Shown here piece after piece: positions 23,074 through 46,566 of a stretch of DNA of 64,000 bases (position 1 is the first letter of the stretch; every line of letters starts with the position of its first letter). The stretch is taken from positions 33,863 to 97,862 of the forward strand of contig NZ_CP135972.1 of NCBI RefSeq assembly GCF_032463525.1. The letters run 5' to 3'. This stretch comes from Pseudomonas sp. DTU_2021_1001937_2_SI_NGA_ILE_001 (GTDB taxonomy: Bacteria; Pseudomonadota; Gammaproteobacteria; Pseudomonadales; Pseudomonadaceae). Made by a program: the position numbers and the translations under genes. The notes beneath the pieces were generated by a model, which saw only the letters and a list, made by a program, of their open reading frames with translations, had not been told where the DNA came from and did not search any database.

Positions 23074-23401
23074 ACGCAGGTGCGTGATTGCAAGACGCCT
23101 CTCTTTCTCTTGAAGGACATTTCCGAGAAAATCCCGGCCGCTTGTGCCCATGCATTCAGGCTTCTACCCTCCTGCCGTCGCTGCCAATTCAGCGACCAGG
23201 TTTGGTAGGCCTGGGTAAATGGGGCGCAAGGCGCCATCTTCTGTGAGGCGCCGTTGCGGTCAGCTTTATGGCGGCCGTGCGCTTGGCGTTCTCGGACGCG
23301 CCGGTTTTGCCCATTTACCGGTCTACCAACTTGCGCATGGCCGCCACCCTTCGTTTGGTAGCGAACGGTGACGGCTCCTGAAATCAAATGGGAGTCACCG
23401 C
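23074..23401. other. Intergenic region after replicon 2
   Basis: 328 bp without a convincing gene. Just before the next start codon, CGGTGA and CTCC (23367-23378) can pair with GGAG and TCACCG (23391-23401). The hairpin includes the GGGAG ribosome binding site. Confidence 0.4.
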
Positions 23402-26460: not shown

Positions 26461-26940
26461 TCACGGCTTGGCGCCCGTCAGCTGCTGCAGCTGCTGGTTG
26501 GCGCTGATCAACTGGTGGCGGTTGGCGGCCACGTCGGTCACGTCGTAGATCACCAGGCAGGTGTGGGTGATCTCACCGGTGGTGCCGCGCAGCGGAAACA
26601 GGCTGGTGTTCTGGTACATGAACGCTTCCTGGCCGGTGATCGGCTGGTAGTTCTTGAAACGCACCAGGTAGGGCCGCTGTTCCCAGATGGTGAACGCCGG
26701 CATGCCAAGGGTCACCACATTGTCGACCTTCTTGCGGAACCAGGCGGGGTTGACCTCCGGGAACAGCTCGAAGAACGACTTGCCGATGGCGTCGAAGGGG
26801 ATCACCCCGGAGCGGTTTTCCATGAAGGTGTTCCACACCTGCACCTGCAGGTCGCGGTCCATCACCACGATGCCCACGTCGATGTTCTGGGTAACGGCCA
26901 GCAGCCAGTGAAGCTCTTTGATATCGATAGGGTTGCTCAT
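26461..26940 (-). CDS. Single PAS-domain protein
   Basis: A 159-residue protein made of one PAS domain: IDVGIVVMDRDLQVQVWNTF as the first strands, FELFPEVN in the middle and GEITHTCLVIYDVTDVAANR as the last strands and exit helix. There is no output domain. Its gene starts 4 nt after the stop of the REC-CheC gene, so the two form an operon. A PAS sensor probably reports a redox or small-molecule signal to the response regulator or to an unlinked histidine kinase. The cofactor is not evident. Confidence 0.85.
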   Translation of the reverse strand: MSNPIDIKELHWLLAVTQNIDVGIVVMDRDLQVQVWNTFMENRSGVIPFDAIGKSFFELFPEVNPAWFRKKVDNVVTLGMPAFTIWEQRPYLVRFKNYQPITGQEAFMYQNTSLFPLRGTTGEITHTCLVIYDVTDVAANRHQLISANQQLQQLTGAKP

Positions 26941-26944
26941 CGGA

Positions 26945-27976
26945 TCAGCTCATCATGTAGGCGAGTTTGCGCGAGAGGCGCTCGACCGAATCTTCGGTGA
27001 ACAACATCAGCAGGTCGAAGTGGATGTTGTGGCCTTCCACGCTGTAGCTGACTTCCACGGCCAGGGTCTTCTTCCAGCGCTTCTGGTTGACGTCGATCAG
27101 GTCGCTGATGCCGCTCTGCTGGCCGAGGATCTGCGGGTGGCCCAGGGAGAATGGCACGTCGATCTGCTCGCCGATGCCGCTCAGGCAGGCACCGATGGCC
27201 AGGGTCGAGAGGTCCAGGAGCATTTCCATGTCGCTGTAGTCAGGCGAGTCGCCCTTCATCAGCCGGGCGATGTCGGCGGTTTCCGAGTCGTGCAGCAGCA
27301 ACAGCGCCTCGCCGGCGATGCCGCCACCGATGTACCCCTGGCACACGGCGGTCAGGCGCTGGCCACGGTCGGCATCGGCCAGGGCCATGTGCAGCTCGCC
27401 GACCTCCAGCATGTTGACGTTGGGCACCGGCAGCTGCACGAACACCCCCAGCACCTTGGCCAGCAGCGCCGCGGCGCGGCCCATGGCGACGTTGACGGTC
27501 TCGCGCATGGCGTCATTGAAACTGATGTTGCCCTCGGCACCCGCCGGCACCTGGCGCGCCACCGGGGCCGCTGGCGCTTGGGTCGGCGCGGGCTGGGGCC
27601 TGGCCTCGGCGATCAGCCCGAGACGCTGCAGGGTGGCCTGCAGCTCGACCGGCTCGGCCGGCTTCTTCAGGAACGCCAGGGCGCCCAGTTCCATCACTCG
27701 GCGTACGGCTTCGTCCTGGACGTCGCCAGACACCACGATAACCTTGGGCTCCAACCCTTCGGCGCGCATCGCCGCCAGGGTCTGGTAGCCGTCCATCACC
27801 GGCATGGTCAGGTCCAGCAGCATGACCTCGGCCAAGCCGTTGCGCACTGCCTGCAAACCTTCCAGGCCATTGTTGGCCATGGTCACCGACACCTCCCATT
27901 CGGGTGGCAGGGCCCGGAGCAATTGCTTGCGCGCCATGTTCGAGTCATCACAGATCACTAGCGCAGTCGTGGGCAT
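26945..27976 (-). CDS. Response regulator with REC and CheC/CheX-like phosphatase domains
   Basis: About 343 residues from ATG 27976 (MPTTALVICDDSNMARKQLL). The residues encoded upstream of this ATG lack domain character. REC spans 1-120, with the acidic pair in ICDDS, the phospho-acceptor Asp in VMLLDLTMPVMDG, the Thr/Ser in VVSGD and the Lys in FLKKP. A Pro/Ala linker joins it to a C-terminal CheC-like domain (about 170-343) containing FNDAMRETVNVAMGRAAALL and the second helix pair MLLDLSTLAIGACLSGIGEQ. CheC-type domains dephosphorylate CheY-P, so this may be a phosphorylation-controlled phosphatase in chemotaxis or biofilm control. It is followed 4 nt later by the PAS gene. Confidence 0.87.
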   Translation of the reverse strand: MPTTALVICDDSNMARKQLLRALPPEWEVSVTMANNGLEGLQAVRNGLAEVMLLDLTMPVMDGYQTLAAMRAEGLEPKVIVVSGDVQDEAVRRVMELGALAFLKKPAEPVELQATLQRLGLIAEARPQPAPTQAPAAPVARQVPAGAEGNISFNDAMRETVNVAMGRAAALLAKVLGVFVQLPVPNVNMLEVGELHMALADADRGQRLTAVCQGYIGGGIAGEALLLLHDSETADIARLMKGDSPDYSDMEMLLDLSTLAIGACLSGIGEQIDVPFSLGHPQILGQQSGISDLIDVNQKRWKKTLAVEVSYSVEGHNIHFDLLMLFTEDSVERLSRKLAYMMS

Positions 27977-28319
27977 CGCGTGGTTTCTCACTACAGGTAA
28001 AGTTTCAGCCGAAAGCGGGGCGCATGATCGACGGCTCGGGTGAAGCGCATTGCACGGCAGCCTATAACACTCCCTCCTGACTGCGAAGGGGACGGCGAAT
28101 GGAAATTTCAGTGTTAATACCACTGTAGCGAAAAATACCCGACCCGCTATCGCAGGGCGTCAGTGCAACACGCACCGGCGCCGCCCCTCTAATCGGTGGT
28201 TATTAGCCACACCTCATTGCCCTTCACTAATCCGTTACCCCGATCACGCGCTATTCATCAACCGTGCAATACCCCGGTATCTAATCGGTGCCTCTTACGG
28301 CGGTCATGAATTCATATTT

Positions 28320-28723: not shown

Positions 28724-29911
28724 TTGCGTATTCTTTCGATCTTCGGCACCCGCCCCGAGGCCATCAAGATGGCGCCGCTGGTCAAGGCACTGGCGGCCGA
28801 GCCGAGCCTGGAGTCACGCGTCTGCATCACCGGCCAGCACCAGCAGATGCTCGACCAGGTCATGGACCTGTTCGGCCTCAAGGCGCACTGCCGGCTGGAC
28901 GTGATGCGCCCGAACCAGAGCCTCAACAGCCTGACCGCCGCGCTGTTCGACGCCATCGACCCGCTGCTCGAAGCCGAACGACCTGACCGCGTGCTGGTGC
29001 ACGGCGACACCACCACGGCCCTGGTCGCCGCCATGGCGGCCTTCCACCGGCGCATTCCGGTCGGGCATGTCGAAGCCGGGCTGCGCACCGGCGACCTCCG
29101 CCAGCCCTGGCCGGAAGAAATGAACCGGCGCAGCATCGACCTGATCGCCGACCAACTGTTCGCGCCTACCGCCGAGTCCCGCTGCAACCTGCTCGACGAA
29201 CGCCTCGCCGGGCAGATCTGGGTCACCGGCAATACCGTCATCGATGCCCTGCAGAAAACCGCCCGACGCATCGACGACGATGATCACCTGCGCCAGCGCC
29301 TGGACAACCGCTTCGGCTTCCTGCAGCCCGGGCGCAGGCTGCTGCTGGTCACCGGCCATCGGCGGGAGAATTTCGGCGAGGGCCTGCGCCACATCTGCCA
29401 GGCCCTGCGCCGCCTGGCACAACGCGCCGACCTGCAGATCGTCTACCCGCTGCACCTGAACCCCAACGTCAAGGGCCCGGTCACCGAGCAGCTCGGCGGG
29501 CTGCACAACGTGCACCTGATCGAGCCGCAGGACTACCTGTCCTTCGTGCGTTTGATGCAGCGCGCCCACGTGGTGCTCACCGACTCCGGCGGCGTACAGG
29601 AAGAGGCGCCGACGCTGGGCAAGCCGGTGCTGGTGATGCGCGATGTCACCGAGCGCCCCGAAGCCGTGGCCGCCGGCACCGCGCGCCTGGTCGGCACCTC
29701 GACGCAGTCCATCGAACAGGGGGTCAGCGCACTGCTCGACGACGAGGCGCTGTGGCGCCAGAGCGCCCAGGCCTGCAACCCCTATGGCGACGGCCAGGCC
29801 AGTGCGCGGATCGTCGATGCCCTGCTGGGCCGCCCGGTCAGCGAGTTCGCCGTGCGTATGCCACAGGCGGCGCAGCCGCTGGCTGTGCCAGGCCAGACCG
29901 TGCCCGGTTGA
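28724..29911 (+). CDS. wecB: UDP-N-acetylglucosamine 2-epimerase (non-hydrolysing)
   Basis: About 395 residues converting UDP-GlcNAc to UDP-ManNAc. ILSIFGTRPEAIKMAPLVKA is the diagnostic start. HGDTTTALVAAMAAFH, VGHVEAGLRTGDL-PWPEE, LVTGHRRENFGEG and SGGVQEEAPTLGKPVLVMR are all present. The frame is open far upstream, but homology begins at LRILSIFGT. TTG 28724 is therefore taken as the start, with GGGGAGG 14 nt upstream; the spacing is long and GTG 28677 is an alternative. It heads an operon with a BcsB-like protein, NfrB, NfrA and a YbcH-like protein, so it probably supplies UDP-ManNAc to that polysaccharide. In E. coli the N4 glycan receptor also needs WecB, but there wecB is unlinked. Confidence 0.88.
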   Translation: MRILSIFGTRPEAIKMAPLVKALAAEPSLESRVCITGQHQQMLDQVMDLFGLKAHCRLDVMRPNQSLNSLTAALFDAIDPLLEAERPDRVLVHGDTTTALVAAMAAFHRRIPVGHVEAGLRTGDLRQPWPEEMNRRSIDLIADQLFAPTAESRCNLLDERLAGQIWVTGNTVIDALQKTARRIDDDDHLRQRLDNRFGFLQPGRRLLLVTGHRRENFGEGLRHICQALRRLAQRADLQIVYPLHLNPNVKGPVTEQLGGLHNVHLIEPQDYLSFVRLMQRAHVVLTDSGGVQEEAPTLGKPVLVMRDVTERPEAVAAGTARLVGTSTQSIEQGVSALLDDEALWRQSAQACNPYGDGQASARIVDALLGRPVSEFAVRMPQAAQPLAVPGQTVPG

Positions 29912-29970
29912 GCGCCTGCACAGCCCCCCGTTTCAGAAGATCCGCTTTCCACTTGTTCGAGACTCTTGCG

Positions 29971-32175
29971 ATGACATTCATTCCCCAGGGCGTGGCCCGT
30001 GTCCTGGCCAGCGCGGCCGGCCTGTTGATGCTGGCGCCCGGCGCCGTGCTGGCTGCCGACAGCCCGCTCAGCCAAGCCCTGGCACAGCTCGATGCCAACC
30101 TGCGCCAGGAACGTGAGATCAGCCTCAAAGACCTGGGCATCCGCGACGCCATCGTGCTCAGTACCGAGGCCGCCAAGCGCGAGCTGTATCTGCCGGTGCC
30201 GGCCGGTATCCCGCTCAGCGATGCCACGCTGAACTTCAACGCCAGCTACCTGAACAGCGAACGTGGGCGCAACACCCTGCTGCTGTCGCTGGACGGCTAC
30301 CCGGTCAACGCCCAGGGCCTGAACGACCCGCAGGGCGATGCCAGCGTGACCCTGGGCGTCGACAAGAGCGCCCGGCCGAGCGGCTCGGTGCGTCTGGGCA
30401 TGGCCTGGTCGGCGAGCACCTCGCAGGCGCTGTGCGAGGACGAACGCGCCATCGGTAACGTGTTGCGCGTCGAGCCCGACACACGCCTGCGCTACAGCTA
30501 CGATGCCAGCCAGCTGCACGACATCGGCGTGGCCTGGAATGCCCTGCCCGGCCAACCCGGCCTGCTGGTCGCCCCTGGCCCGCTGTCGACCGCCAGTTTC
30601 GACGCCGCCTGGCGTCTGGGCGTGGCCCTGGAACGCGTCGGCAAGCAGGCGCGGATCCTGCCGCTGCCGGCGGTGGGCGACACCTTGCTGCTGGACGGGC
30701 TGAAGGTGCCCGAGGCGCTGCGCAGCGTGCCGGCCTTCGCCAGCCTCAACGGCCAGGGCCGCTACACCCTGCAGAACGTCGCCGAGGTCGGTGCCCTGCT
30801 GGTGCTCGGCCAGACCGCGAACGTGCAGGCCGACCTGGCGGTCGCCGACGCGCAGCTGAGCCAGGCCCTCGACGCGGCCCTGGAGGCCTTGCAGGCCCAG
30901 GTGCAGGCGGTCGATGCCCAGGCCGCGCGCGCACTGGGCAAATGGCGCGAGCGGCACCTGCAGGCCAGCGTGCAGGCGCTGGGCCAGGACGACATCCGCC
31001 TGGCGATGCTCGGCAGCCGTCCAGTGCTGTCGATCGCCCCCGGGGCCACCGGCAAAGCCATCAGCCTGCTCGATGCGGCCTGGAATCGCCTGGCGCGCAG
31101 CAGCCAGCTGAGCATCGCCCAGGCGCAACGACCGCCGAGCCAGGACGGGCGCATCGCCCTGGCCAGCCTGGGCACCCAACCGGCCACCCTGCAAGTGCTG
31201 TCGAGCGGCGACTGGACCACCACCTTCCCGCTCGGCTACGTGGCCGGTGACGGTCGCCTGCCGGTCCGTGCGGTGATCGACGTGACCGCCGCACCAGGAG
31301 CCTCGGACACCGCGCCGGTGCTGTCGCTGTTTCTCAACGACTACCTGATCGGCGCCGCGCAACTGGTCACCGATGGCCAGCAACAGCGCCTGGAGGCGCG
31401 TATCCCGGCCTATGCCCTGGGCTCGCGCAACGTGCTGCGAGTGTTCTTCCAGCGCCAGCCGGTCAGCAACCGCTGCCGGGAAACCCCGCAGGCCTTCCCC
31501 GTCACCGTACTGCCGACCAGTCACCTGGTACTGGAGCCGGCCACGCCGAGCGCCAACTTCGCCGGCATGGCCGCGCGCTTCGCCGGCGACAGCCAGGTCC
31601 TGGTGCCGCAGGCCTGGCTGGAACAGGCCGCCAGCCGCCTGCCGACGCTCATCAAGGTGGCCGACGCCACAGGCGTTTCGCCCTTACACGCGCAACTGCA
31701 GGTGCAGGCTGCCGGTCCCGCGCAGCTGACCCCGGAGCGCCCGTTCCTGGCCTTCGACCTGCCCCCCAAGGACACCGAGCTGGCCGTCCAGGCCGACGCC
31801 CAGGGCCGCTTGCTGATCAAGCACAAGGCCGAACCCTGGCTGCAGATCCAGCCCCTGGACCAACTGGCCGCCCTGCAGGTGATCGATGCCGGCCAGCAGC
31901 ATGGGGTGCTCTACACCAGCCTGGGCGCACACCCGGCCGCCCCTGAGAAAGCCCTGCTGCTGGGCCGTGGCGATGCCTCGATCATCGGCGCCGAAGGCTC
32001 ACTGGCGACCTTCAGCACCCAGGACCCGAACGGCAACCTGCTGGTGCAGGCCAACGAGCCGGTAGGCCTGGACGCCTGGCGCCAGCCTTCGCGGCTGTGG
32101 CTGATTCCCGGTGCGCTGCTGGCCCTGCTGGTCATCGTGCTGGCCGGCCGCCGTGCGCGGCGCAAGCGTCAGTAG
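29971..32175 (+). CDS. BcsB-like periplasmic polysaccharide-synthase subunit, membrane anchored
   Basis: About 734 residues with an N-terminal signal peptide (MTFIPQGVARVLASAAGLLM, cleaved near VLAA-D) and a single C-terminal transmembrane helix (LWLIPGALLALLVIVLAG) before a basic tail. The body has the BcsB plan of alternating carbohydrate-binding-like and flavodoxin-like domains. Jelly-roll-type strands such as ATLNFNASYLNSERGRNTLL and LSLFLNDYLIGAAQLV appear, and FPVTVLPTSHLVL resembles the BcsB segment before the last domain. BcsB guides cellulose through the periplasm and activates BcsA by its membrane anchor. Here it sits between WecB and an NfrB synthase, 11 nt before the latter, and should play the same part for another polymer. 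The family assignment is by pattern, not alignment. Confidence 0.7.
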   Translation: MTFIPQGVARVLASAAGLLMLAPGAVLAADSPLSQALAQLDANLRQEREISLKDLGIRDAIVLSTEAAKRELYLPVPAGIPLSDATLNFNASYLNSERGRNTLLLSLDGYPVNAQGLNDPQGDASVTLGVDKSARPSGSVRLGMAWSASTSQALCEDERAIGNVLRVEPDTRLRYSYDASQLHDIGVAWNALPGQPGLLVAPGPLSTASFDAAWRLGVALERVGKQARILPLPAVGDTLLLDGLKVPEALRSVPAFASLNGQGRYTLQNVAEVGALLVLGQTANVQADLAVADAQLSQALDAALEALQAQVQAVDAQAARALGKWRERHLQASVQALGQDDIRLAMLGSRPVLSIAPGATGKAISLLDAAWNRLARSSQLSIAQAQRPPSQDGRIALASLGTQPATLQVLSSGDWTTTFPLGYVAGDGRLPVRAVIDVTAAPGASDTAPVLSLFLNDYLIGAAQLVTDGQQQRLEARIPAYALGSRNVLRVFFQRQPVSNRCRETPQAFPVTVLPTSHLVLEPATPSANFAGMAARFAGDSQVLVPQAWLEQAASRLPTLIKVADATGVSPLHAQLQVQAAGPAQLTPERPFLAFDLPPKDTELAVQADAQGRLLIKHKAEPWLQIQPLDQLAALQVIDAGQQHGVLYTSLGAHPAAPEKALLLGRGDASIIGAEGSLATFSTQDPNGNLLVQANEPVGLDAWRQPSRLWLIPGALLALLVIVLAGRRARRKRQ

Positions 32176-32186
32176 ATGCAGCGGTC

Positions 32187-34295
32187 ATGACCTCGCTCTA
32201 CTGGCCCTACTGGCTGGCCCATTACTACAGCTTCCTGGAGGCCGCGACCCTGGTGGTCGCGGTGCTGATCCTGATTTCTGCCCTGGACGACCTGTTCGTC
32301 GACCTGTGGTACTGGGCCCGGCGCCTGTATCGCAAGTTCACCGCCGAGCGCCAGTTCCGCCCGCTGAGCGAGGCGCAGCTGCTGGCCAAGGAAGAGCAGC
32401 CGCTGGCGATCATGGTCCCGGCCTGGCTGGAATACGACGTCATCGCACCGATGATCGAGAACATGGTCTCGACACTGGACTACCGCAACTACGTGGTCTT
32501 CGTCGGCACCTACGTCAACGATCAGCGCACCATCGACGAGGTCGAACGCATGCGCCGGCGCTACCGGCTATTGCATCGCGTCGAGGTGCCGCACGCCGGC
32601 CCCACCTGCAAGGCCGACTGCCTGAACTGGGTGATCCAGGCGATCTTCCTGCACGAGAAGACCCATGGCATGACCTTCGCCGGCGTGGTGCTGCACGACA
32701 GCGAAGACGTGCTGCACCCGCTGGAGCTGCGCCTGTTCAACTACCTGCTGCCACGCAAGGACATGATCCAGCTGCCGGTGGTGTCGCTGGAGCGCAACTG
32801 GTACGAATGGGTGGCCGGCACCTACATGGACGAGTTCGCCGAATGGCACGGCAAGGACCTGGTGGTGCGCGAGAGCCTCACCGACACCGTGCCGTCGGCC
32901 GGCGTGGGCACCTGTTTCTCGCACCGCGCCCTGCAGGTGTTGGCGGCGGAAAACCAGAACCAGCCGTTCAACACCGACAGCCTCACCGAAGACTACGACG
33001 TGGGTGCACGCCTGGCCCGGCACGGCATGAACGCGATCTTCGTGCGCTTCCCGGTGCAGTACCGCATCCTGCGTAAGTCGTGGTTCCGAGCGCCCTACGA
33101 AACCACCCTGACCATGCCGCTGTGCGTGCGCGAGTTCTTCCCCGACACCTTCCGCACGGCGTTTCGCCAGAAGGCCCGCTGGACTCTGGGCATCGGCCTG
33201 CAGGGCTGGGAGCAGATGGGCTGGAGCGGTTCGCTGGCCAACCGCTACCTGTTGTTCCGCGACCGCAAGGGGCTGGTCACCTCGTTCGTCAGCATCATCA
33301 CCTACGTGATCCTCCTGCAGGTGCTGGTGCTGCTGGTGCTGAGTTACACCCGCCTGTGGACGGTGAGCTTCCCGACCCTGTTCGACAGCAGCCGCCTGGT
33401 CGAGCTGTTGCTGGTCGCCAACCTGTTCTCGTTGGCCTGGCGCATGGCCCACCGTGTCTACTTCACCACCGTGCTGTACGGCTGGCAGCACGGCCTGCTG
33501 TCGATACCGCGGATGATCATCGGCAACTTCGTCAACTTCATGGCAGCCGCACGGGCCTGGCGCATGTTCCTGATCGGCAAGCTGCTGGGCCGCAAGCTGG
33601 CCTGGGACAAGACCATGCACGACTTTCCGTCCACCGACCTGGTGGCCATCGCGCCGCGCAAGCTGGGCAACCTGCTGGTGTCGTGGCAGGCGATCAGCGA
33701 CGAAACCCTGCAGGCCGCACTGGCCGAACAGAAAGACCGCCCCTTGCCGCTGGGACGCATCCTGCTGGGCCGCGGCTGGCTGGACGACGAGACCCTGGCC
33801 GAGGCCATCGCCTTCCAGAGCGACCTGCCGCGTGTCTACGACCTGGCGAATCATCGGCATGAAGACCGCGCCAACGATGAGCACCTGCGGCGCTGGCGCG
33901 CCGTGGCGCTGAGCCCCGACGCCCAGGGCCGGCCGCGCATCGCGGTGACCAGCCCGCTGCCCGCCGAAGGCCTGCAGCAGCTGACCACGCAACTGGGCGC
34001 CGAGCCCGCGCAGCTGATTGCCCGGGAAAGCGAGATCACCGCCTGCCTGCGTGAACTGGGCAGCACCCCGGACGGCGCGCCGCCGGCCGCCAGCGCGCCG
34101 CTGCTCGGCGACCTGTTGATCGAATCCGGGCAGATCGACCGCCGTGTGTTCGACGACGCGATGCTCCACTACCGGCCGGACGAACATGGCCGTATCGGTG
34201 ATTACCTGGTGGGCATCGGCGTGCTGTCGCGTGAGGTCATCGACCAGGCGGTGGCGCGCCAGTACCGTTTCGCCCCGCAGGAGCCTGTCTCATGA
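32187..34295 (+). CDS. nfrB: NfrB-type inner-membrane glycosyltransferase with c-di-GMP-binding MshEN domain
   Basis: About 702 residues. A first membrane helix (about 15-33) precedes a GT2 domain with LAIMVPAWLEYDVIAPMIEN, the metal-binding HDSEDVLHPLELRL, the TEDYDVGARLARHG acceptor motif and the QKARWTLG (QxxRW) gate typical of processive synthases. Three membrane helices follow (about 370-470). The last 190 residues carry two good MshEN motifs, PLGRILLGRGWLDDETLAEA and RIGDYLVGIGVLSREVIDQA, plus a weaker LLGDLLIESGQIDRRVF copy. These are the RLGxxL...G...L...Q signatures of c-di-GMP binding. E. coli NfrB makes the N4 glycan receptor under c-di-GMP control. It overlaps nfrA by ATGA. Confidence 0.88.
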   Translation: MTSLYWPYWLAHYYSFLEAATLVVAVLILISALDDLFVDLWYWARRLYRKFTAERQFRPLSEAQLLAKEEQPLAIMVPAWLEYDVIAPMIENMVSTLDYRNYVVFVGTYVNDQRTIDEVERMRRRYRLLHRVEVPHAGPTCKADCLNWVIQAIFLHEKTHGMTFAGVVLHDSEDVLHPLELRLFNYLLPRKDMIQLPVVSLERNWYEWVAGTYMDEFAEWHGKDLVVRESLTDTVPSAGVGTCFSHRALQVLAAENQNQPFNTDSLTEDYDVGARLARHGMNAIFVRFPVQYRILRKSWFRAPYETTLTMPLCVREFFPDTFRTAFRQKARWTLGIGLQGWEQMGWSGSLANRYLLFRDRKGLVTSFVSIITYVILLQVLVLLVLSYTRLWTVSFPTLFDSSRLVELLLVANLFSLAWRMAHRVYFTTVLYGWQHGLLSIPRMIIGNFVNFMAAARAWRMFLIGKLLGRKLAWDKTMHDFPSTDLVAIAPRKLGNLLVSWQAISDETLQAALAEQKDRPLPLGRILLGRGWLDDETLAEAIAFQSDLPRVYDLANHRHEDRANDEHLRRWRAVALSPDAQGRPRIAVTSPLPAEGLQQLTTQLGAEPAQLIARESEITACLRELGSTPDGAPPAASAPLLGDLLIESGQIDRRVFDDAMLHYRPDEHGRIGDYLVGIGVLSREVIDQAVARQYRFAPQEPVS

Positions 34296-36244
34296 AGCCT
34301 GCCCTGCTCCCCTGCCTGGCCGGCCTGCTCCTGCTGCCCGTCAGTACCCTCGCCGACACCCTGCCGCTGCCGCTCAGCGGGCCGGCCTATCGGCTGGCCG
34401 AAGAGGCCAGCCAGGCCTATGCCCGCCAGGACTACGACACGGCCCTGGCCAAGGCCCGCGAGGCGCAGCGCCAACGCCCCGATGCCGTGCAACTGCAAAG
34501 GCTGATCGACCAGATCTTGCATGATCGGCAGCACGGTACAGCGGCCTCACGGCCTCACGCTGCCGCCGTCGCCGACAGCGCCAGCAGGGGCTATCAGGCC
34601 GCCAGCCAGGCGCTGCGCGACTATCAGCGCGGCGCTTACCCTGCCGCCACACAGGCCGCGCGCCGTGCCGTCGAACAAGCCCCGGACAATTACGCCTACC
34701 GCCTGATGCTGATCGAAACCCTGCAGCGTCAACAGCAACTGGAGCCGGCGCATGTCGCCACCCTGGACGCCCTGGCGCGCTTCGGTCCGCGCCCGGAACT
34801 GCTGCAGCGTCGCCAGTCGATCGAGGCCCAGCAGGCCGTGGACGTTGCCGACCTCGGCTATGCCGCCCTGGCCCGTGGCGATTCGGCACAGGCGGTGCGC
34901 CTGGCCCGCGAGGTGGTGCAGCTGGACGCACAGAAACTGGCCTACCGACGCCTGCTGGTCGACGCACTGGTCGCCGACGGGCAGTACCCGGCGGCCCGCG
35001 ATGCCGCCAGCGACGCCCTGCGCCTGAACGCCCATGACAGCGTCCTGCTGGTGCACCGTGGGCAGATGCGCCGGCGCCTCGGCGACCTGCCGGGCGCACA
35101 CCAGGACTTCAACCAGGCGCTGTTGCAGAACGACCTGCCCGAGCGCGAGCGCGCCGCGCTGCATGTCGCCCTCAACCAGCCAGAACCGGCCCTGCGCGAG
35201 CTGCTGACGGCGCAGCGCCAGGGCCAGCTACAAGGCGCTGACCAGGTGCAACTGGCCTACCTGCTGAGCCAGGCCGGCGAACCTGCACAGGCACTGGCGA
35301 CCTTCCGTGCGGCGGATCGCGACACCGGCCTGCAGGCCGAGGCCCTGCGCGATGCGGCCTACAGCGCACAGCGTAACGGCGACGATGCCCAGGCCATCGC
35401 CTGGTTCGAACGGGTGCTGGACCAGCAGCGCGCTGGCCAACTGACGATGAACGACCAGCAGGTGTTCGACACCCGGCGCGCCGTGGCCGACCTGGCGCGA
35501 CGCTGGAGCCTGGTCAACACCACCAGCTATCGCGGCGCGACGACCGCCAGCGGCCTGGCCGGCACGCCAGGCGCGCGCCTGGACAGCCTGCAGAACATCA
35601 CCGAGCTGGCCTGGCGGCCGCTGGGCTACAACAACGCACGCTTCGTCGAGCTTTACGGCCGCGTCACCGACACCCTGTGGAGCCGGCAAGGCGGCGGCGG
35701 CCTCGATGCGCTGTCCGGCGCCGTGGGGGTGCGTGCCAAGCCACTGGCCGCGCACAACGTCATGCTCGCCGTGGAACGCACCTTCCCCCTCGGCTCGAAC
35801 GGCCCCGATGGCGACTGGCTGCTGCGCCTGGGCTACGGCCTGAGCAACGGCACCGACCTGCGCGTCGATGAACCCAGCTGGTGGACCTCGCAGTTGTACC
35901 TGGAAGCCGGGCGCTACCTGCAGGCCGCGCGCAACTACGCCGTCAGCGAGTGGCAGATCGGCCGCAGCCTGCGCCTGGACGCCATCAGCCCGACGCTGGT
36001 GGTCTTTCCTCATGCGGTGCTGGCCACCGACTACGACGCGCGGATGCGCAGCGAGACCGACGGCCAGGGCCGTCCCGGCACGGCCGGGGGCGCGGGGGTG
36101 GGCGTCGGCCTGCGCTACTGGATGCGTGAAACCCAGTACCGGGCACCGCAGTCCTACCTGGACCTGACTGTGCAATACCGCGATCGGATCTTCGGCGACG
36201 ACCGCGCCGAGGGCCTGGTGGCGCGCCTGACCTATGCCTGGTAA
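34292..36244 (+). CDS. nfrA: NfrA-like outer-membrane secretin with TPR repeats
   Basis: A 650-residue protein with a signal peptide (MKPALLPCLAGLLLLPVSTL, then ADT). TPR-like helical repeats rich in A, L and Q follow (for example AYRLAEEASQAYARQDYDTA, GDLPGAHQDFNQALLQ, QAEALRDAAYSAQRNGDDAQ). The C-terminal 230 residues alternate aromatic and hydrophobic strands and end in ARLTYAW, a terminal aromatic as in outer-membrane barrels. E. coli NfrA, the N4 phage receptor, has the same TPR-barrel design but is longer (about 990 residues). The predicted role is secretion of the polymer made by NfrB through the outer membrane. It starts within the nfrB stop, so the two are coupled. Confidence 0.8.
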   Translation: MKPALLPCLAGLLLLPVSTLADTLPLPLSGPAYRLAEEASQAYARQDYDTALAKAREAQRQRPDAVQLQRLIDQILHDRQHGTAASRPHAAAVADSASRGYQAASQALRDYQRGAYPAATQAARRAVEQAPDNYAYRLMLIETLQRQQQLEPAHVATLDALARFGPRPELLQRRQSIEAQQAVDVADLGYAALARGDSAQAVRLAREVVQLDAQKLAYRRLLVDALVADGQYPAARDAASDALRLNAHDSVLLVHRGQMRRRLGDLPGAHQDFNQALLQNDLPERERAALHVALNQPEPALRELLTAQRQGQLQGADQVQLAYLLSQAGEPAQALATFRAADRDTGLQAEALRDAAYSAQRNGDDAQAIAWFERVLDQQRAGQLTMNDQQVFDTRRAVADLARRWSLVNTTSYRGATTASGLAGTPGARLDSLQNITELAWRPLGYNNARFVELYGRVTDTLWSRQGGGGLDALSGAVGVRAKPLAAHNVMLAVERTFPLGSNGPDGDWLLRLGYGLSNGTDLRVDEPSWWTSQLYLEAGRYLQAARNYAVSEWQIGRSLRLDAISPTLVVFPHAVLATDYDARMRSETDGQGRPGTAGGAGVGVGLRYWMRETQYRAPQSYLDLTVQYRDRIFGDDRAEGLVARLTYAW

Positions 36245-36294
36245 ACCGCCCCAGACGACCGGGTCAACCGCCGTTTTTCAAGGACGCCGAATGC

Positions 36295-37179
36295 ATGCCC
36301 TTAGCCGCTTTCCTGCCCCGCCTCTCGACCCGCGCCCGCCTCGTGGCGGCGGCACTGCTGGGCCTCATCGTGCTCGGCACCGGCACGCTCCAGGTGCTTG
36401 ACCGGCGAACGGCGCAGCCGTTGATTGCCGGTATCGTCTGGCAGCCCGACAACGCCACCGTGGGCATCCAGGGCGACTGGCAGCGCCTCGGCGCCCGGGA
36501 ATTGCTGGTGCAGTGGACGGTGGTCGACGACCAGGCGTTCATACCCGGCACCGGCCTGCCGCAGGTCCCGGTACTGCCCGACTGGTCACGCATCGCCGCC
36601 CAGCCCTGGGCCCAGGAGGTGATCCTCGGCCTGGCCGGCTACTTCAGTGAAGGCCGCTCGCGGGACAACATCGAGCATCTGGCAGCGCTGTCCGAGCGGC
36701 TGGCGCGGCTGACGACGCCGCTGCAGGTCAGCGGCTGGTACTTCCCTGCCGAGGTCGACCCCAGCTGGACCCGCGCCCGGGAGCTGCCGGCACTGCTGGC
36801 CAAGCTGCCGCGGCCGCTGTGGATCAGCGTCTACGACGGCGCCAACATCGGCCCGGCGGCCACTGCCGAGTGGCTGCAGGGCTGGCTGCCGGCGGATGTC
36901 GGGGTGTTCTTCCAAGACGGTGTCGGGGTGTACGCCCGCAGCGCCCCGGTGGCGCGCCAGTACGCCGACGCGCTCAGCCAGCGCCTGGGCAAAGCGCGGG
37001 TACGGCTGATCGCCGAAGCCTTCCGCCCCCAGCTCGGCGGCGGCTTTCGCCCTGCCACGCTGGACGAGCTGCGTCCGCAACTGGCCGCCTACGCCGGCTA
37101 CCCGCTGTACCTGTTCGACGGCCCGCACTACGTCACCCCGGCGCTGGTCGAGGGGTTGGCCACGGACTCGTCGCCGTGA
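36295..37179 (+). CDS. YbcH-like periplasmic protein, possible glycoside hydrolase (DUF4434-like)
   Basis: A 294-residue protein with an N-terminal membrane/signal helix (LVAAALLGLIVLGTGTLQVL). The body looks like a TIM-barrel hydrolase: LIAGIVWQPDNATV, LLVQWTVVDDQAF, VSGWYFPAEVDPSWTRA with an acidic residue pair, WISVYDGANIGPA, VGVFFQDGVGVY and VRLIAEAFRP. E. coli ybcH, next to nfrA/nfrB, has about the same length and setting. Substrate and activity are unknown; trimming the NfrB polymer is a reasonable guess. It is the last gene of the operon, 50 nt after nfrA, with an AAGGA site. Both the YbcH identity and the barrel fold are pattern-based. Confidence 0.6.
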   Translation: MPLAAFLPRLSTRARLVAAALLGLIVLGTGTLQVLDRRTAQPLIAGIVWQPDNATVGIQGDWQRLGARELLVQWTVVDDQAFIPGTGLPQVPVLPDWSRIAAQPWAQEVILGLAGYFSEGRSRDNIEHLAALSERLARLTTPLQVSGWYFPAEVDPSWTRARELPALLAKLPRPLWISVYDGANIGPAATAEWLQGWLPADVGVFFQDGVGVYARSAPVARQYADALSQRLGKARVRLIAEAFRPQLGGGFRPATLDELRPQLAAYAGYPLYLFDGPHYVTPALVEGLATDSSP

Positions 37180-37191
37180 GCGTGCCGCGCC

Positions 37192-38109
37192 TCAGCCCCG
37201 ATGCTGCTTTCGGTACTCGCTGGGTGACAGACCGAAGCGTGCCTTGAAGGCGGTGGAGAAGTAGCAGTAGCTGGAAAAGCCCCAGGCGTAGCCGAGGGTC
37301 GAGAGGTTCTGGGTCTGCTGGCCACAGCGCAGCGATTCGGCGCACAGGTCCAGGCGGCGGTTACGGATGTACTGGGCAACGACCAGGTTCTTGCGGGCAA
37401 ACAGGCGGTACAGGCCCCGCACCGAGACGCCGACGTCACGGGCCAGGCTTTCGGGCCCCAGGGCTTCATCGGTGATTTGCGTGTCGATCAGCGCCAGGGC
37501 CTTGCGCAGCAGGCGCTCATGCGCGTCGGTCTCGCTCAGCGTGGCGCTGATCGCCGGACGCAGCAGGTCCAGGGTGGCGCCCAGGATGGCTTCGCTCTCG
37601 GCCAGGCTCAGGCAGCTCTGGCGGCTGGCATCGACGATCAGCCGGCTGGCCAGGCGGGCGATCGGCGAGTGTCCGGGCACCCGCTGGGCGCAGCGCACCT
37701 CGGCGAACTGCAGGCTTTTCTCGACCAGCGGGCGGGGCAGGATCAACGACAGTTGCCGGGAGCTTTCGCTGTACAGGAAGTTGCTCGGCACGGCAGCGTC
37801 GATCAGCGTGATGTCGCCGGCCTGCAAGGCGGCGCTGTCCGTCCCCTGTTCCATGCGTGCCTGCCCCTGCAGCTGGAAGACCGCGTAGTAGTGGTTGTCG
37901 TCGCCCTGGCTCAGTTCACGGGGCCCGCGATACAACTGCGCACCACAGACATCGACGATGCTCAGCTTCAGCGCACCGCTGCGAAACTCTTCCAGGGCCG
38001 CGTTGCAGGTCTGCCCCAGAGGCCGTGCGGCGAAAGCGCCACAGGCCTGGTTGACCTGTTGCAGCCAGGCGTTGAATCGATCGGCCTGTGCGGCCTGTGC
38101 CATGCCCAT
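37192..38109 (-). CDS. feaR: AraC-family regulator, FeaR-like
   Basis: A 305-residue protein with an AraC ligand-binding-type N-terminus (residues about 1-180, including DNHYYAVFQLQGQARMEQGT) and two helix-turn-helix units at the C-terminus. The first is LARDVGVSVRGLYRLFARKN, and YAWGFSSYCYFSTAFKARFG is the classic second HTH plus signature. The FeaR subfamily activates genes for aromatic amine oxidation (tynA, feaB). A copper amine oxidase gene lies 1.4 kb away on the other strand, which supports that role. It is convergent with the YbcH-like gene, 12 nt from it. Confidence 0.8.
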   Translation of the reverse strand: MGMAQAAQADRFNAWLQQVNQACGAFAARPLGQTCNAALEEFRSGALKLSIVDVCGAQLYRGPRELSQGDDNHYYAVFQLQGQARMEQGTDSAALQAGDITLIDAAVPSNFLYSESSRQLSLILPRPLVEKSLQFAEVRCAQRVPGHSPIARLASRLIVDASRQSCLSLAESEAILGATLDLLRPAISATLSETDAHERLLRKALALIDTQITDEALGPESLARDVGVSVRGLYRLFARKNLVVAQYIRNRRLDLCAESLRCGQQTQNLSTLGYAWGFSSYCYFSTAFKARFGLSPSEYRKQHRG

Positions 38110-38187
38110 GTCTTACAGCCCCGCTGCGTTGTTGTTGTCGGTTGGCGATGTGCCGTTGTACCTCGATCGCCGGCGTGCTTCAAACGC

Positions 38188-39165
38188 TCAGAGGTTGCGA
38201 CGCAGCCCTGACGGCCGTTCGCCGAACAGCTTCTGGTATTCGAGGCTGAAGTAGCTGGGGTGCTCGAAGCCCCAGCGCGCGGCGACTTCGGCGATGCACT
38301 GCTGCGGGTCCTGGCGCAGGCTGCGCCGTGCACCGTTGAGACGCACCGAGCGCAGATACTGCACCGGGCTGACCGCGGCCACGCTCTGAAAGCTGTATTG
38401 CAAGGTACGCCGCGAAATCTTCAGGCGCTGGCACAGTTCCAGAAGGCTCGGTGGCTGCTCGGTCCGCTCCAGCAGCCACTGATGGCAGCGCTCGACGATG
38501 TAACGCCGCGTACCGGCAGCGGGCAGGACCGGCGCCTCACCGGCCAGGCTGTCGAGCCAGTCGGCGACGGTCAGCACCAGCCAGGCCTTGGACTGCGCAC
38601 ACGAGACGCCAAGGGTGGACGTCGCGTCGAGCATGGCCAGCAGGCGTGGAACGTCGGCGGCCAGACGTGCAGCGGGCATCGGCAGGGGCTGCACGACCGG
38701 GTTGTACTGCAACCTGAACAGGCGTTCTTCGTCGAGCAGCCCGGCCAGCGCCGCCAGCGGGATGGACAGGCAGAGCACGTCCATGCCCGCCGGGCTGACC
38801 ACCCGCAGTGGCTCCTGGGCCGGCAGCAGGCTCGGCTGACGGGCGCAAATGAGGCTGTGTTCATCGGCCTGTGGCCAGGCCAACGGGACCAGGATGTTCA
38901 GCGCCGCCGCAGGCAGGCGAATCGACTGCAGCACCGACCGGTTCAAGCGCTCGCGGAACACCTGCACGTCGTCGGCCTGGGCGGTGCTCAGCCAGCCATC
39001 CAGCGGGCCGGGGCTGAGCTGGTCATAACACTGCTGCCAACCCGGCAGCGCATTGGCATGTTCGAAGATGTCGGTGGTGTGCACCCATTGCCGCACGCAT
39101 GTGTTCAAGTTGCGCCCTCGTCGCAGAACTTCCCGAACGTTGTGCAATGTTTCTGCAACGGCCAT
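38188..39165 (-). CDS. AraC-family regulator, EutR-like
   Basis: About 325 residues from ATG 39165, with GAGGAAG 6 nt upstream. The N-terminal domain contains QCYDQLSPGPLDGWLSTAQA and NRSVLQSIRLPAAALNILVP, the pattern of EutR-type AraC regulators. The HTH is LLELCQRLKISRRTLQYSFQ, and the signature is RWGFEHPSYFSLEYQKLFGE. It may sense an amine or aldehyde and control the divergent amine oxidase gene, whose start lies 320 bp away. Two AraC regulators next to one enzyme suggest layered control by substrate and product. Confidence 0.8.
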   Translation of the reverse strand: MAVAETLHNVREVLRRGRNLNTCVRQWVHTTDIFEHANALPGWQQCYDQLSPGPLDGWLSTAQADDVQVFRERLNRSVLQSIRLPAAALNILVPLAWPQADEHSLICARQPSLLPAQEPLRVVSPAGMDVLCLSIPLAALAGLLDEERLFRLQYNPVVQPLPMPAARLAADVPRLLAMLDATSTLGVSCAQSKAWLVLTVADWLDSLAGEAPVLPAAGTRRYIVERCHQWLLERTEQPPSLLELCQRLKISRRTLQYSFQSVAAVSPVQYLRSVRLNGARRSLRQDPQQCIAEVAARWGFEHPSYFSLEYQKLFGERPSGLRRNL

Positions 39166-39485
39166 GCCGTACTTCCTCGTGCCGGCGGTATGAAACCTGG
39201 AAATCACTCGAAGTGCCCCGCGATCTTCTGCCTTTGAACCTCGCAAACCCATCTGGCACGGGACTTTCAGCGCGATGCTGCCGATCAGTTGCCAATTTGT
39301 GTTAATGCCCTGAAGAACGCCTGAATTAGAGTCGCGGCAACATTGATCGCCCACTTGAAAGTGTCCGTCACCGGCGCTGTCAGGGATAAACAAGTGCCTG
39401 GCAGGCAGACAAAAAAGAGGGGGCGTTGCTGTTACCAAAAGAACCATAAGCCGTTTGCAAAACGGTCATGCCGAGGACCCGACTC
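39166..39485. other. Divergent regulatory region of the amine oxidase
   Basis: 320 bp without a gene between the EutR-like regulator and tynA. It holds a TGCAA-rich stretch just before tynA (TTTGCAAAACGG, 39454-39465). No promoter elements are clear. Confidence 0.4.
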
Positions 39486-41738
39486 ATGCTCAACACCACA
39501 ACGACTTTCAGAACACTGGCCCTGGCCGCCGCACTCTGTACCTTGTCGGGTATGGCCCTGGCCCATGGCGGGGCGGCCGAGATGGTGCCTTTGCAAACCA
39601 CGCTGGAAGCCTTCGGCGCCCAGGTGAAATGGGACGATTACGCCGGCCTGTTCGTCATCACCAAAGGCGGCGCCTACGTGAAGGTCAAACCCGACAGCCA
39701 CGTGGCACAGCTCAACGGCAAACGCCTGGAGCTGAGCGTGCCGGTGGTGTTCAAGGGCAAGACCGCCTACATGGCCAAGGACTTCATCAATCAGGTGTTC
39801 CAGTCGGGCCTGGACAAGACCTTCGTAGTCGAGTCCACACCACACCCGCTCAACCCGCTCAGTGCCCAGGAGATCGAGCGCGCCGTGGCGGTGATCAAGG
39901 CCTCGGACAAGCACCTGCCAGACCTGCGCTTCAGCCAGATCAGCCTGGTCGAGCCGGACAAGGCCCAGGTCTGGGCCTTCGCCCTCACCGGCAAGGCCGT
40001 AAGCCAGCCACGCCAGGCCAGCGTGACGCTGCTGCATGGCGCCCATGTGATCGAAGCGCGGGTCGACCTGGCCAGCCAGAAACTGCTGTCCTGGACGCCC
40101 ATCGAAGGCGCGCATGGCATGGTGCTGCTGGATGACTTCGCCACCGTGCAGTCGGTGATCGAGAACAGCCCCGAATACGCCCAGGCGGTGGCCAAGCGCG
40201 GCATCACCGACCTGAAGAAAGTCATCGGCACGCCCCTGACTGTCGGTTACTTCGACAACAAGGACGGCCTACAGCAGGACAAGCGCCTCCTCAAGGTGGT
40301 GTCCTACCAGGACGTGGGCGACGGCAACTACTGGGCGCATCCCATCGAGAACCTGGTGGCGGTAGTCGACCTAGAGCAGAAGAAGATCATCAAGATCGAG
40401 GACCAGGGCGTGATTCCCGTGCCCCTGGCGCCGCGCCCGTACAACGGCAGCGACCGGGTGCAGACAGCGCTCAAGCCGCTGCAGATCATCGAACCGGAGG
40501 GCAAGAACTACACCATCAAGGGCAACAGCATTCACTGGCAGAACTGGGACCTGCACCTGCACCTGGACTCGCGGGTGGGGCCGGTGCTCTCCACGGTCAG
40601 CTACAACGACCGTGGCACCCGACGCAAGGTCATGTACGAGGGCAACCTCGGCGGCATGGTGGTGCCCTACGGCGATCCGGACACCGGCTGGTACTTCAAG
40701 GCCTATCTGGACTCGGGCGAGTACGGCATGGGCACCCTCACCTCGTCGATCCAGCCCGGCAAGGACGCGCCGGAAAACGCCGTGCTGCTGGACGCGACCA
40801 TCGCCGACTACACCGGCGCACCAATGACCATCCCGCGCGCCATGGCGATCTTCGAGCGCTATGCCGGCCCCGAATACAAGCACCAGGAAATGGGCCAGCC
40901 CAACGTCAGCACCGAGCGTCGTGAGCTGGTGGTGCGCTGGATCAGCACCGTGGGCAACTACGACTACATCTTCGACTGGGTCTTCCAGCCCAACGGCACC
41001 CTGGGCATCAACGCCGGAGCTACCGGCATCGAGGCGGTCAAGGGCGTGAAGAGCCGCACCATGCACGACCAGACCGCCGCCCATGACACCCAGTACGGCA
41101 CGCTGATCGACCACAACATCGTCGGCACCACACACCAGCACATCTACAACTTCCGCCTCGACCTGGACGTGGATGGCGAGAACAACTCGCTGGTGGAAAT
41201 GAACCCGGTGGTGCTGCCCAACGACCGGGGCGGGCCGCGCACCAGCACCATGCAGGTCAAGCAGCGCACGGTGCCGGACGAACAGCAGGCGGCGCAGAAA
41301 TTCGACCCCTCGACCATCCGCCTGCTGAGCAACCCGAACAAGGAAAACAAGCTCGGCAACCCGGTGTCGTACCAGTTGATTCCCTATGCCGGCGGCACCC
41401 ATCCGGTGGCCCAGGGTGCCAACTTCGGCCAGGACGAGTGGATCTACAACCGCCTGAACTTCATGAGCAAGCAGATCTGGGTGACCCGCTACGACCCCAA
41501 CGAGCGCTATCCGGAGGGCCTGTACCCCAACCGCTCGGCGAAGGACACCGGACTGGCGCAGTTCACCGCCAACAACCAGCCGATCGACAACACCGACAAC
41601 GTGGTCTGGCTGACCACTGGCACCACCCACGTGGCGCGCGCCGAGGAATGGCCGATCATGCCGACCGAATGGGTCAACGTGCTGCTCAAGCCGTGGAACT
41701 TCTTCGATGAGACCCCGACCCTGGGCCTGAAGAAGTAA
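39486..41738 (+). CDS. tynA: Primary-amine (copper) oxidase, tyramine oxidase-like
   Basis: About 750 residues with a signal peptide (FRTLALAAALCTLSGMALAH), so periplasmic. It oxidises amines such as tyramine or phenethylamine to aldehyde, NH3 and H2O2. The TPQ precursor is Tyr492 in GNYDYIFDW. The copper ligands are His550, His552 (THQHIYNF) and His715 (TTHVARAEEW), and the catalytic base is Asp409 (YLDSGEYG). The distances Asp-Tyr 83, Tyr-His 58 and Tyr-His 223 equal those in E. coli amine oxidase (383, 466, 524, 689). The N-terminal D1 stalk domain is also present. ATG 39486 is chosen with GAGG 9 nt upstream. The two AraC genes adjacent are its likely regulators. Confidence 0.95.
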   Translation: MLNTTTTFRTLALAAALCTLSGMALAHGGAAEMVPLQTTLEAFGAQVKWDDYAGLFVITKGGAYVKVKPDSHVAQLNGKRLELSVPVVFKGKTAYMAKDFINQVFQSGLDKTFVVESTPHPLNPLSAQEIERAVAVIKASDKHLPDLRFSQISLVEPDKAQVWAFALTGKAVSQPRQASVTLLHGAHVIEARVDLASQKLLSWTPIEGAHGMVLLDDFATVQSVIENSPEYAQAVAKRGITDLKKVIGTPLTVGYFDNKDGLQQDKRLLKVVSYQDVGDGNYWAHPIENLVAVVDLEQKKIIKIEDQGVIPVPLAPRPYNGSDRVQTALKPLQIIEPEGKNYTIKGNSIHWQNWDLHLHLDSRVGPVLSTVSYNDRGTRRKVMYEGNLGGMVVPYGDPDTGWYFKAYLDSGEYGMGTLTSSIQPGKDAPENAVLLDATIADYTGAPMTIPRAMAIFERYAGPEYKHQEMGQPNVSTERRELVVRWISTVGNYDYIFDWVFQPNGTLGINAGATGIEAVKGVKSRTMHDQTAAHDTQYGTLIDHNIVGTTHQHIYNFRLDLDVDGENNSLVEMNPVVLPNDRGGPRTSTMQVKQRTVPDEQQAAQKFDPSTIRLLSNPNKENKLGNPVSYQLIPYAGGTHPVAQGANFGQDEWIYNRLNFMSKQIWVTRYDPNERYPEGLYPNRSAKDTGLAQFTANNQPIDNTDNVVWLTTGTTHVARAEEWPIMPTEWVNVLLKPWNFFDETPTLGLKK

Positions 41739-46449: not shown

Positions 46450-46566
46450 CAACCACTGGTGAACAGGAAGCTCACCAGGATCAGGGACGATCGACCATGA
46501 AGGGACTCTGCTGACAGGGAGTTGGAATGGTCTTGGACAAAGAACCCGCTTCGGCGGGTTTTTTAT
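46450..46566 (+). ncRNA. Csr/Rsm-type regulatory sRNA (RsmX/Y/Z-like)
   Basis: An intergenic transcript of about 117 nt (estimated start) ending in a UUCG-loop terminator, AACCCGC-TTCG-GCGGGTT-TTTT (46543-46564). Several GGA motifs occur. Two sit in hairpin loops as CsrA/RsmA prefers: TGGTGA-ACAGGAAGC-TCACCA (46457-46477) and GATC-AGGGAC-GATC (46479-46492). More GGA copies follow (AAGGGAC, ACAGGGAG, TTGGAA, TTGGAC). No coding frame of note runs through. This is the pattern of GacA-activated RNAs that titrate RsmA/RsmE in Pseudomonas, regulating biofilm, secretion and chemotaxis. Which Rsm RNA it is I cannot say. Confidence 0.75.

Follow-up and report, generated by a model that had tools for sequence, protein, structure and literature searches.

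The window analysed here, a 64,000-nucleotide stretch of Pseudomonas sp. DTU_2021_1001937_2_SI_NGA_ILE_001 (contig NZ_CP135972.1), carries at positions 28724-37179 five + strand genes separated by small gaps, in the order wecB, bcsB-like, nfrB, nfrA and ybcH/DUF4434-like (Table 1). With high probability, we consider this operon to belong to the Nfr/NGR/PGR family, whose synthase-dependent surface polysaccharide machines are gated by cyclic di-GMP (c-di-GMP), and to be of a BcsB-bearing type within it. A preliminary description of the same DNA had proposed five genes in a row, forming an exopolysaccharide operon of NfrA/NfrB type that includes wecB, a gene for a BcsB-like protein and c-di-GMP motifs in NfrB. 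All five genes were found, co-directed and closely packed, their starts and stops agreeing with the coordinates it had given, and profiles and folds support the proposal. The operon is thus real and the function read from it largely correct, but systems of this kind are already known. The gene set is not a product of chance, since 36 of 36 other Pseudomonas loci, chosen by their score for the family NfrA_C alone, carried this five-gene set in identical order.

The operon encodes a GT2 synthase that has DxD-type, TED and QxxRW motifs and carries a fused MshEN domain, an outer-membrane protein with TPR and an NfrA_C beta-barrel and, inside the cluster, a WecB whose use by NfrB is predicted. WecB reached 464.8 bits against TIGR00236 (cut-off 210.15). 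The wecB of the cluster was the only copy found in the genome, which makes it plausible that it serves as a dedicated source of UDP-ManNAc for the operon. NfrB matched PF13632 and exceeded the cut-offs of NF012033 (1133.6 bits, cut-off 537), of the c-di-GMP motif model NF053729 (77.7 bits, cut-off 38) and of the MshEN family PF05157 (26.3 bits, cut-off 23.1), while the Pfam and NCBIfam profile searches listed neither a BcsA or PgaC model nor a PilZ domain for this protein. Residues H171, D172, E174 and D175 of NfrB were invariant in a 9-row alignment (A1). Gating of NfrB by c-di-GMP is predicted from these matches and from the half-motifs of Table 1, for which we used the relaxed MshEN motif definition of PMC5013675. 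NfrA matched NfrA_C (PF13283) with 206.3 bits (cut-off 25), together with TPR families.

For the BcsB-like and YbcH-like proteins, profile searches against PDB sequences were almost empty (a single match at E 0.94 for the first and none for the second), and therefore folds were compared instead. The BcsB-like protein scored 41.9 bits against PF03170 (cut-off 21), and residues 42-686 of its AlphaFold model (pLDDT 81.9) matched solved BcsB (Foldseek, VIA). It reached 15.1 of the 972 bits required by the cellulose BcsB equivalog NF008324; it is thus a BcsB-family protein by its PF03170 score and its fold, and not the cellulose BcsB equivalog. Its hydrophobic C-terminal helix may act as a membrane anchor, by analogy with BcsB. 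The model of the YbcH-like protein (pLDDT 92.5) had 4h41, a putative glycosidase, as its best PDB match and also matched PgaB glycoside hydrolase domains (Foldseek E 1.8e-4). Two invariant glutamates of this TIM barrel, Glu153 and Glu241, are candidates for catalysis. By profile, the protein stayed below the cut-offs of PF14488 (28.4 bits, cut-off 30) and NF007404 (43.9 bits, cut-off 344). The gene identities proposed earlier were therefore borne out over curated cut-offs for WecB, BcsB, MshEN, the c-di-GMP motif and NfrA_C, and for YbcH as a distant match only.

Profile similarity to the E. coli-type families was present, as had been expected, and its extent was informative. The window NfrB scored 644.6 of the 1170 bits required by the E. 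coli-type equivalog NF008411, and the window NfrA 51.6 of the 1223 bits required by NF007302. As a yardstick, we used a Pseudomonas locus of the E. coli-like type (L067, type B below): its NfrB passed with 1245.6 bits, while its NfrA (1123.8 bits) and its YbcH (331.1 of 344 bits) were both slightly under the cut-off. By the NCBI equivalog cut-offs, the NfrB, NfrA and YbcH of the window are members of a sister branch and not E. coli-type proteins.

To place the window in its genus, NfrA_C was run against 298 Pseudomonas genomes, giving 99 places in 95 genomes, of which all but one fragment (in G076) were inspected with their surroundings (98/99). Genes were labelled by phmmer with the window proteins and E. 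coli-type proteins as queries, and a cyclase was called from a GG[DE]EF motif in a frame longer than 200 aa, so that cyclases with other motifs would escape. Window-like loci (type A) were set apart by NfrA_C score, the 36 others standing at E 3e-56 or better. All 37 type-A loci had the order wecB-bcsB-nfrB-nfrA-ybcH, either in the five-gene form of the window (20/37) or with nfrA and ybcH separated by AlgF- and AlgX/J-like genes (17/37, the families being checked in one locus). By the same motif test, no co-directed cyclase gene adjoined the cluster in any of them. In the 54 E. coli-like loci (type B), a BcsB-like gene was never present (0/54), whereas a cyclase gene lay inside the cluster in 46 and wecB in 45, and the NfrA frame was about 1000 aa or longer in most. 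A third set of six loci (L070, L205-L209) had wecB-bcsB-nfrB with a short NfrB of about 570 aa, followed by nfrA and AlgX/J- and AlgF-like genes, with no ybcH in the cluster; one further locus (L158), with NfrA- and YbcH-like genes and no NfrB, was left unclassified. These counts span related genomes and are hence not independent. Two systems were found together in four genomes, A and B in G211 and G262, and B with the short-NfrB form in G025 and G259, and therefore the branches are not versions of one locus. Altogether, these results indicate that Pseudomonas holds two deeply split Nfr branches, one BcsB-bearing and one E. coli-like and usually cyclase-bearing. The window's branch is common, with 37 of the 298 sampled genomes, and a BcsB subunit on one side and a neighbouring cyclase on the other offer a natural comparison of two ways to run one kind of synthase.

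Some single loci deserve mention. In four type-A loci (L052, L056, L058, L061) an 869-aa GGDEF gene faces ybcH at a distance of about 20 bases, and in L049, also of type A, a co-directed GGDEF gene lies 5.5 kb further on. Genes split over two open frames, which may be broken genes or sequencing errors, were seen for nfrA in L100 and for bcsB-like in L042, L079, L106, L208 and L210, with wecB split as well in L208.

The split was recovered in a tree of NfrB (91 rows), made by a quick method and with long branches flagged: 70 type-A rows, the short-NfrB form included, stood together (SH-aLRT 100), and 18 Pseudomonas type-B rows grouped with E. coli NfrB (SH-aLRT 100). The NCBI equivalog models agree with it, the type-B NfrB of L067 passing and that of the window failing. 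Relatives in GTDB contigs were then considered through the best 80 of 577, which lean to close kin. All five genes were present in 29 of 29 Pseudomonas rows, 9 of which repeat loci of the genus scan; the rows include strains labelled P. syringae, P. amygdali, P. avellanae, P. viridiflava, P. putida and P. fluorescens. The 51 loci from other genera, mainly Burkholderiales and also Stenotrophomonas and Rhizobiales-type genera, had BcsB-like in 49, nfrA in 48, wecB in 43 and ybcH in 35, counted anywhere in a stretch of up to 18 kb, several of which stop at contig ends. Both loci without BcsB belong to Collimonas (L103, 6744-10121; L121, 2516-5892); they carry a type-A NfrB, and the gap between their wecB and nfrB frames is only 27 and 44 bases. 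A class-level NfrB scan gave 8 of 369 at E 1e-60, three places of which (L210-L212) were used in the tree only. In order-level scans run to place the Acinetobacter PGR locus, the BcsB-like profile matched 1 of 293 genomes (the window's own) and the NfrB profile 4 of 293; PF03170 matched in 23 of 293. No sequence from these scans was assignable to PGR. No relatives of the system were found in IMG/VR.

Systems of this kind have been described in other species. In E. coli K-12, the NGR/NfrBA-YbcH system, receptor of phage N4 (PMC8669469, PMC8669472), shares with the window a GT2 synthase with MshEN, a TPR/barrel exporter, a DUF4434-like protein and a need for WecB, the last being predicted for the window; it differs in that wecB lies elsewhere, the published nfrBA-ybcH operon has no BcsB gene and NfrB belongs to the other branch. 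Junkermeier and Hengge (PMC8669469) reported that in Pseudomonas soli SJ10 wecB neighbours nfrB, and that nfr adjoins a putative cyclase gene in most pseudomonads. Such wecB-nfrB-nfrA-ybcH-DGC loci have their own wecB and their genus in common with the window; the difference was judged on our 54 type-B loci, P. soli itself being known to us from its published description. Closer in content is the cluster of Achromobacter xylosoxidans (Sellner et al., PMC8669472), where a BcsB homologue, NfrA, NfrB and WecB occur together as in the window. It also has O-acetyltransferase homologues, whereas the window has none, although AlgF- and AlgX/J-like genes accompany part of the type-A loci. The PGR locus of A. 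baumannii, published in 2025 (PMC12507263), resembles the window by gene content, with BcsB (pgrD), NfrB (pgrC) and WecB (pgrF) homologues, a porin and a PgaB-C-like protein. Its product acts as a phage receptor, a strain without pgrD losing adsorption of phage StAb3, and it differs by pgrA, which is cyclase-like but without GGDEF. The Bcs cellulose synthase (BcsA/BcsB) shares the BcsB fold, the partner synthase in the window being NfrB-type with MshEN. The gene set and the phage link were therefore already in print for other species, and the novelty of the operon is not supported. Nor is it the E. coli NfrBA system plus extras: its NfrB is of a separate branch, its partner gene is another one and no co-directed cyclase adjoins it. 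A literature search of open-licence PMC papers found none on a BcsB-bearing Nfr form in Pseudomonas. As far as that search goes, the two-branch picture in Pseudomonas is new, and so would be a phage-tail module joining NGR, PGR and P. syringae phages. The name Pap, from P. ogarae F113, was also considered for the locus and rejected, as papA is described as a UDP-glucose/GDP-mannose dehydrogenase gene and NfrB goes unmentioned in the available text of PMC10850567.

The gene content suggests the following course. WecB would supply UDP-ManNAc, which NfrB, with c-di-GMP in its MshEN domain, would polymerise while moving the growing polymer across the inner membrane. In the periplasm, the BcsB-like protein, which its C-terminal helix would hold beside NfrB, would take up the chain and guide it. 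The YbcH-like TIM barrel may trim or edit the chain, and NfrA would export it through the outer membrane. The product would be a ManNAc-containing surface glycan; the NGR and PGR glycans are described in the literature as uncharacterised.

The tail protein gp64 of N4 was searched for in 50,697 phage records, with GenBank and RefSeq copies both counted. Matches were found in 322 records, labelled Escherichia (223), Pseudomonas (22), Campylobacter (21), Achromobacter (17), Acinetobacter (15) and others, and the barrel spans Schitoviridae (N4), Autographiviridae (Achelous) and large E. coli phages. The 22 Pseudomonas records correspond to 14 named phages. Among the matches listed, their hosts were P. 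syringae for 17 records (11 named phages; 12 of the 17 records pv. avii), P. taiwanensis for two and unnamed species for three, and P. aeruginosa was named in none of the 22. Two gp64-barrel phages, Alpheus and Lebethron, have P. taiwanensis as their recorded host. The gp65 protein, which contacts NfrA in N4, matched 13 Pseudomonas records; full-length matches, among those listed, came from phage inbricus of pv. avii (54% over 100%), from Achromobacter phages and from the Delftia phage RG-2014 (47% over 98%). Phage Halfdan on E. coli MG1655 and a variant on Pseudomonas taiwanensis both had the gp64 barrel, with 55% identity to N4 over 72% (H291, H292, H294).

From these matches, we put at about even the chances that Pseudomonas phages with the gp64-type tail barrel use the operon's glycan as receptor. 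The barrel is common to E. coli phages needing NfrB and WecB (PMC8669472, PMC8594841), the phages of PMC8594841 having later been shown to be hindered by nfrB loss (PMC8669472). It also occurs in the Acinetobacter phages EAb13, Mystique and TCUP2199, three relatives of StAb3, with PGR tied to the host range of the first two and the third not assessable (PMC12507263); StAb3 itself was not among the matches listed, and the words 'deacetylase' and 'tail sheath' are absent from the main text of that paper. LIT1, LUZ7 and DEV, N4-like phages of P. aeruginosa, were part of the phage collection searched and were absent from the 22 barrel records; DEV uses O-antigen and LptD (PMC12892993). P. syringae and its kin are among the carriers of the window's branch, and the N4-type module is present in phages of P. 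syringae. Ten type-A genomes (P. syringae, P. viridiflava, P. amygdali, P. avellanae, P. tremae, P. caspiana and close kin), which we take to belong mostly to the P. syringae group, had exactly one NfrA_C match each, of type A.

Several points limit the link to phages or weigh against a receptor role. The ten genomes were chosen for carrying type A, and therefore only the absence of the other branch is seen in them, not the frequency of type A. The presumed NGR binder is gp66 and not gp64 (PMC12892993), and gp66 matched inbricus over its first half only (39% over 47%). The Pfam name of the gp64 domain is that of a structural tail-sheath TIM barrel, the barrel is also present in phages labelled Campylobacter or Aeromonas, and among open-licence PMC papers none was found that tests a Pseudomonas phage against an nfr mutant. 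It is a serious possibility, somewhat short of probable, that the ManNAc-based glycan is a biofilm or envelope polymer, that P. syringae phages use another receptor and that the gp64 barrel is common tail architecture; the needs of the E. coli phages, the host range of the two A. baumannii phages and the place of LIT1, LUZ7 and DEV outside the barrel records speak for the glycan as receptor instead. A wider idea, which we put forward tentatively, and a little more so in view of how the ten genomes were chosen and of the presumed role of gp66, is that two anciently split machines, the cyclase-neighboured E. coli type and the BcsB-bearing type of the window, perhaps with Acinetobacter PGR, expose the same ManNAc-based epitope, for which phages of different families converged on or exchanged one tail module, the N4 gp64-type barrel. 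If so, the barrel would be a marker predicting the receptor of the 322 phage records, P. syringae phages included.

A cellulose- or PNAG-like product appears improbable. The BcsB-like gene would then signal a glucan or GlcNAc polymer, with WecB serving another pathway, and the BcsB fold, the resemblance of the YbcH-like barrel to the PgaB glycoside hydrolase domain (among many glycosidases) and the prediction of N4 gp64 as a poly-GlcNAc deacetylase domain (PMC8594841) can be read in this way and count against a ManNAc polymer. Against such a product stand a wecB within every one of the 37 type-A clusters, that of the window being the only wecB found in its genome, an NF012033/NfrB-type synthase with MshEN as best family, and the E. 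coli glycan, which requires WecB and no other ECA gene among those tested (PMC8669472, PMC8669469). It is very improbable that the operon has decayed or fallen silent: the window copy lacks a co-directed cyclase and O-acetylation genes and no conserved promoter motif was found upstream, but all five frames are open with intact catalytic motifs, and the same form recurs in 20 of the 37 type-A loci.

Table 1. Genes, motifs and residues of the operon, in window positions. NfrB motif counts are limited to the 175 rows (166 distinct) with frames of 500-820 aa.
Feature	Position	Strand	Basis
wecB, non-hydrolysing UDP-GlcNAc 2-epimerase (predicted UDP-ManNAc supply)	28724..29911	+	TTG start; TIGR00236
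BcsB-like inner-membrane/periplasmic co-subunit (predicted)	29971..32175	+	PF03170; AlphaFold model vs solved BcsB
C-terminal helix of BcsB-like protein, residues 711-733, read as membrane anchor	32101..32169	+	DSSP of model; hydrophobic sequence
nfrB, NfrB-type GT2 synthase with MshEN domain(s)	32187..34295	+	NF012033, PF13632, PF05157
HDSED, DxD-type catalytic motif of the GT	32694..32708	+	162/166 distinct NfrB rows
TED motif of NfrB	32985..32993	+	166/166 distinct rows
QxxRW motif of NfrB	33168..33182	+	166/166 distinct rows
First c-di-GMP half-motif	33660..33731	+	Loose form only; Gly-10 to Gln, likewise in E. coli NfrB
Second c-di-GMP half-motif	33747..33818	+	Fits published relaxed motif; 5-residue spacer from first
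Further C-terminal MshEN-type half-motif	34191..34262	+	Fits relaxed motif
nfrA, NfrA-type TPR/beta-barrel outer-membrane exporter (predicted)	34292..36244	+	PF13283, TPR families
YbcH/DUF4434-like periplasmic TIM-barrel protein, putative glycan hydrolase	36295..37179	+	Predicted structure
Glu153, candidate catalytic residue of YbcH-like TIM barrel	36751..36753	+	Invariant in 22/22 rows, alignment A3
Glu241, candidate catalytic residue of YbcH-like TIM barrel	37015..37017	+	Invariant in 22/22 rows, alignment A3

Control of the operon was looked at in the regions upstream of wecB, 3 of the 37 type-A loci being dropped for want of a WecB anchor motif in the open frame. RpoN, FliA and FleQ boxes were each found in 0 of 34 type-A upstream regions. 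A loose AmrZ pattern occurred in 9 of the 34 regions, not in that of the window, and was not taken as a signal. On the upstream side of the operon, two - strand genes that point away from it encode a PAS-domain protein and a response regulator (26461-28123). After it come two AraC-family regulators on the - strand and a copper amine oxidase gene on the + strand (37192-41738). Elsewhere in the window, we detected a C4 antisense RNA (23164-23351, 71.5 bits), accompanied by its a1/b1 target element (58.6 bits), and an rsmX small RNA (46451-46564, 96.9 bits).
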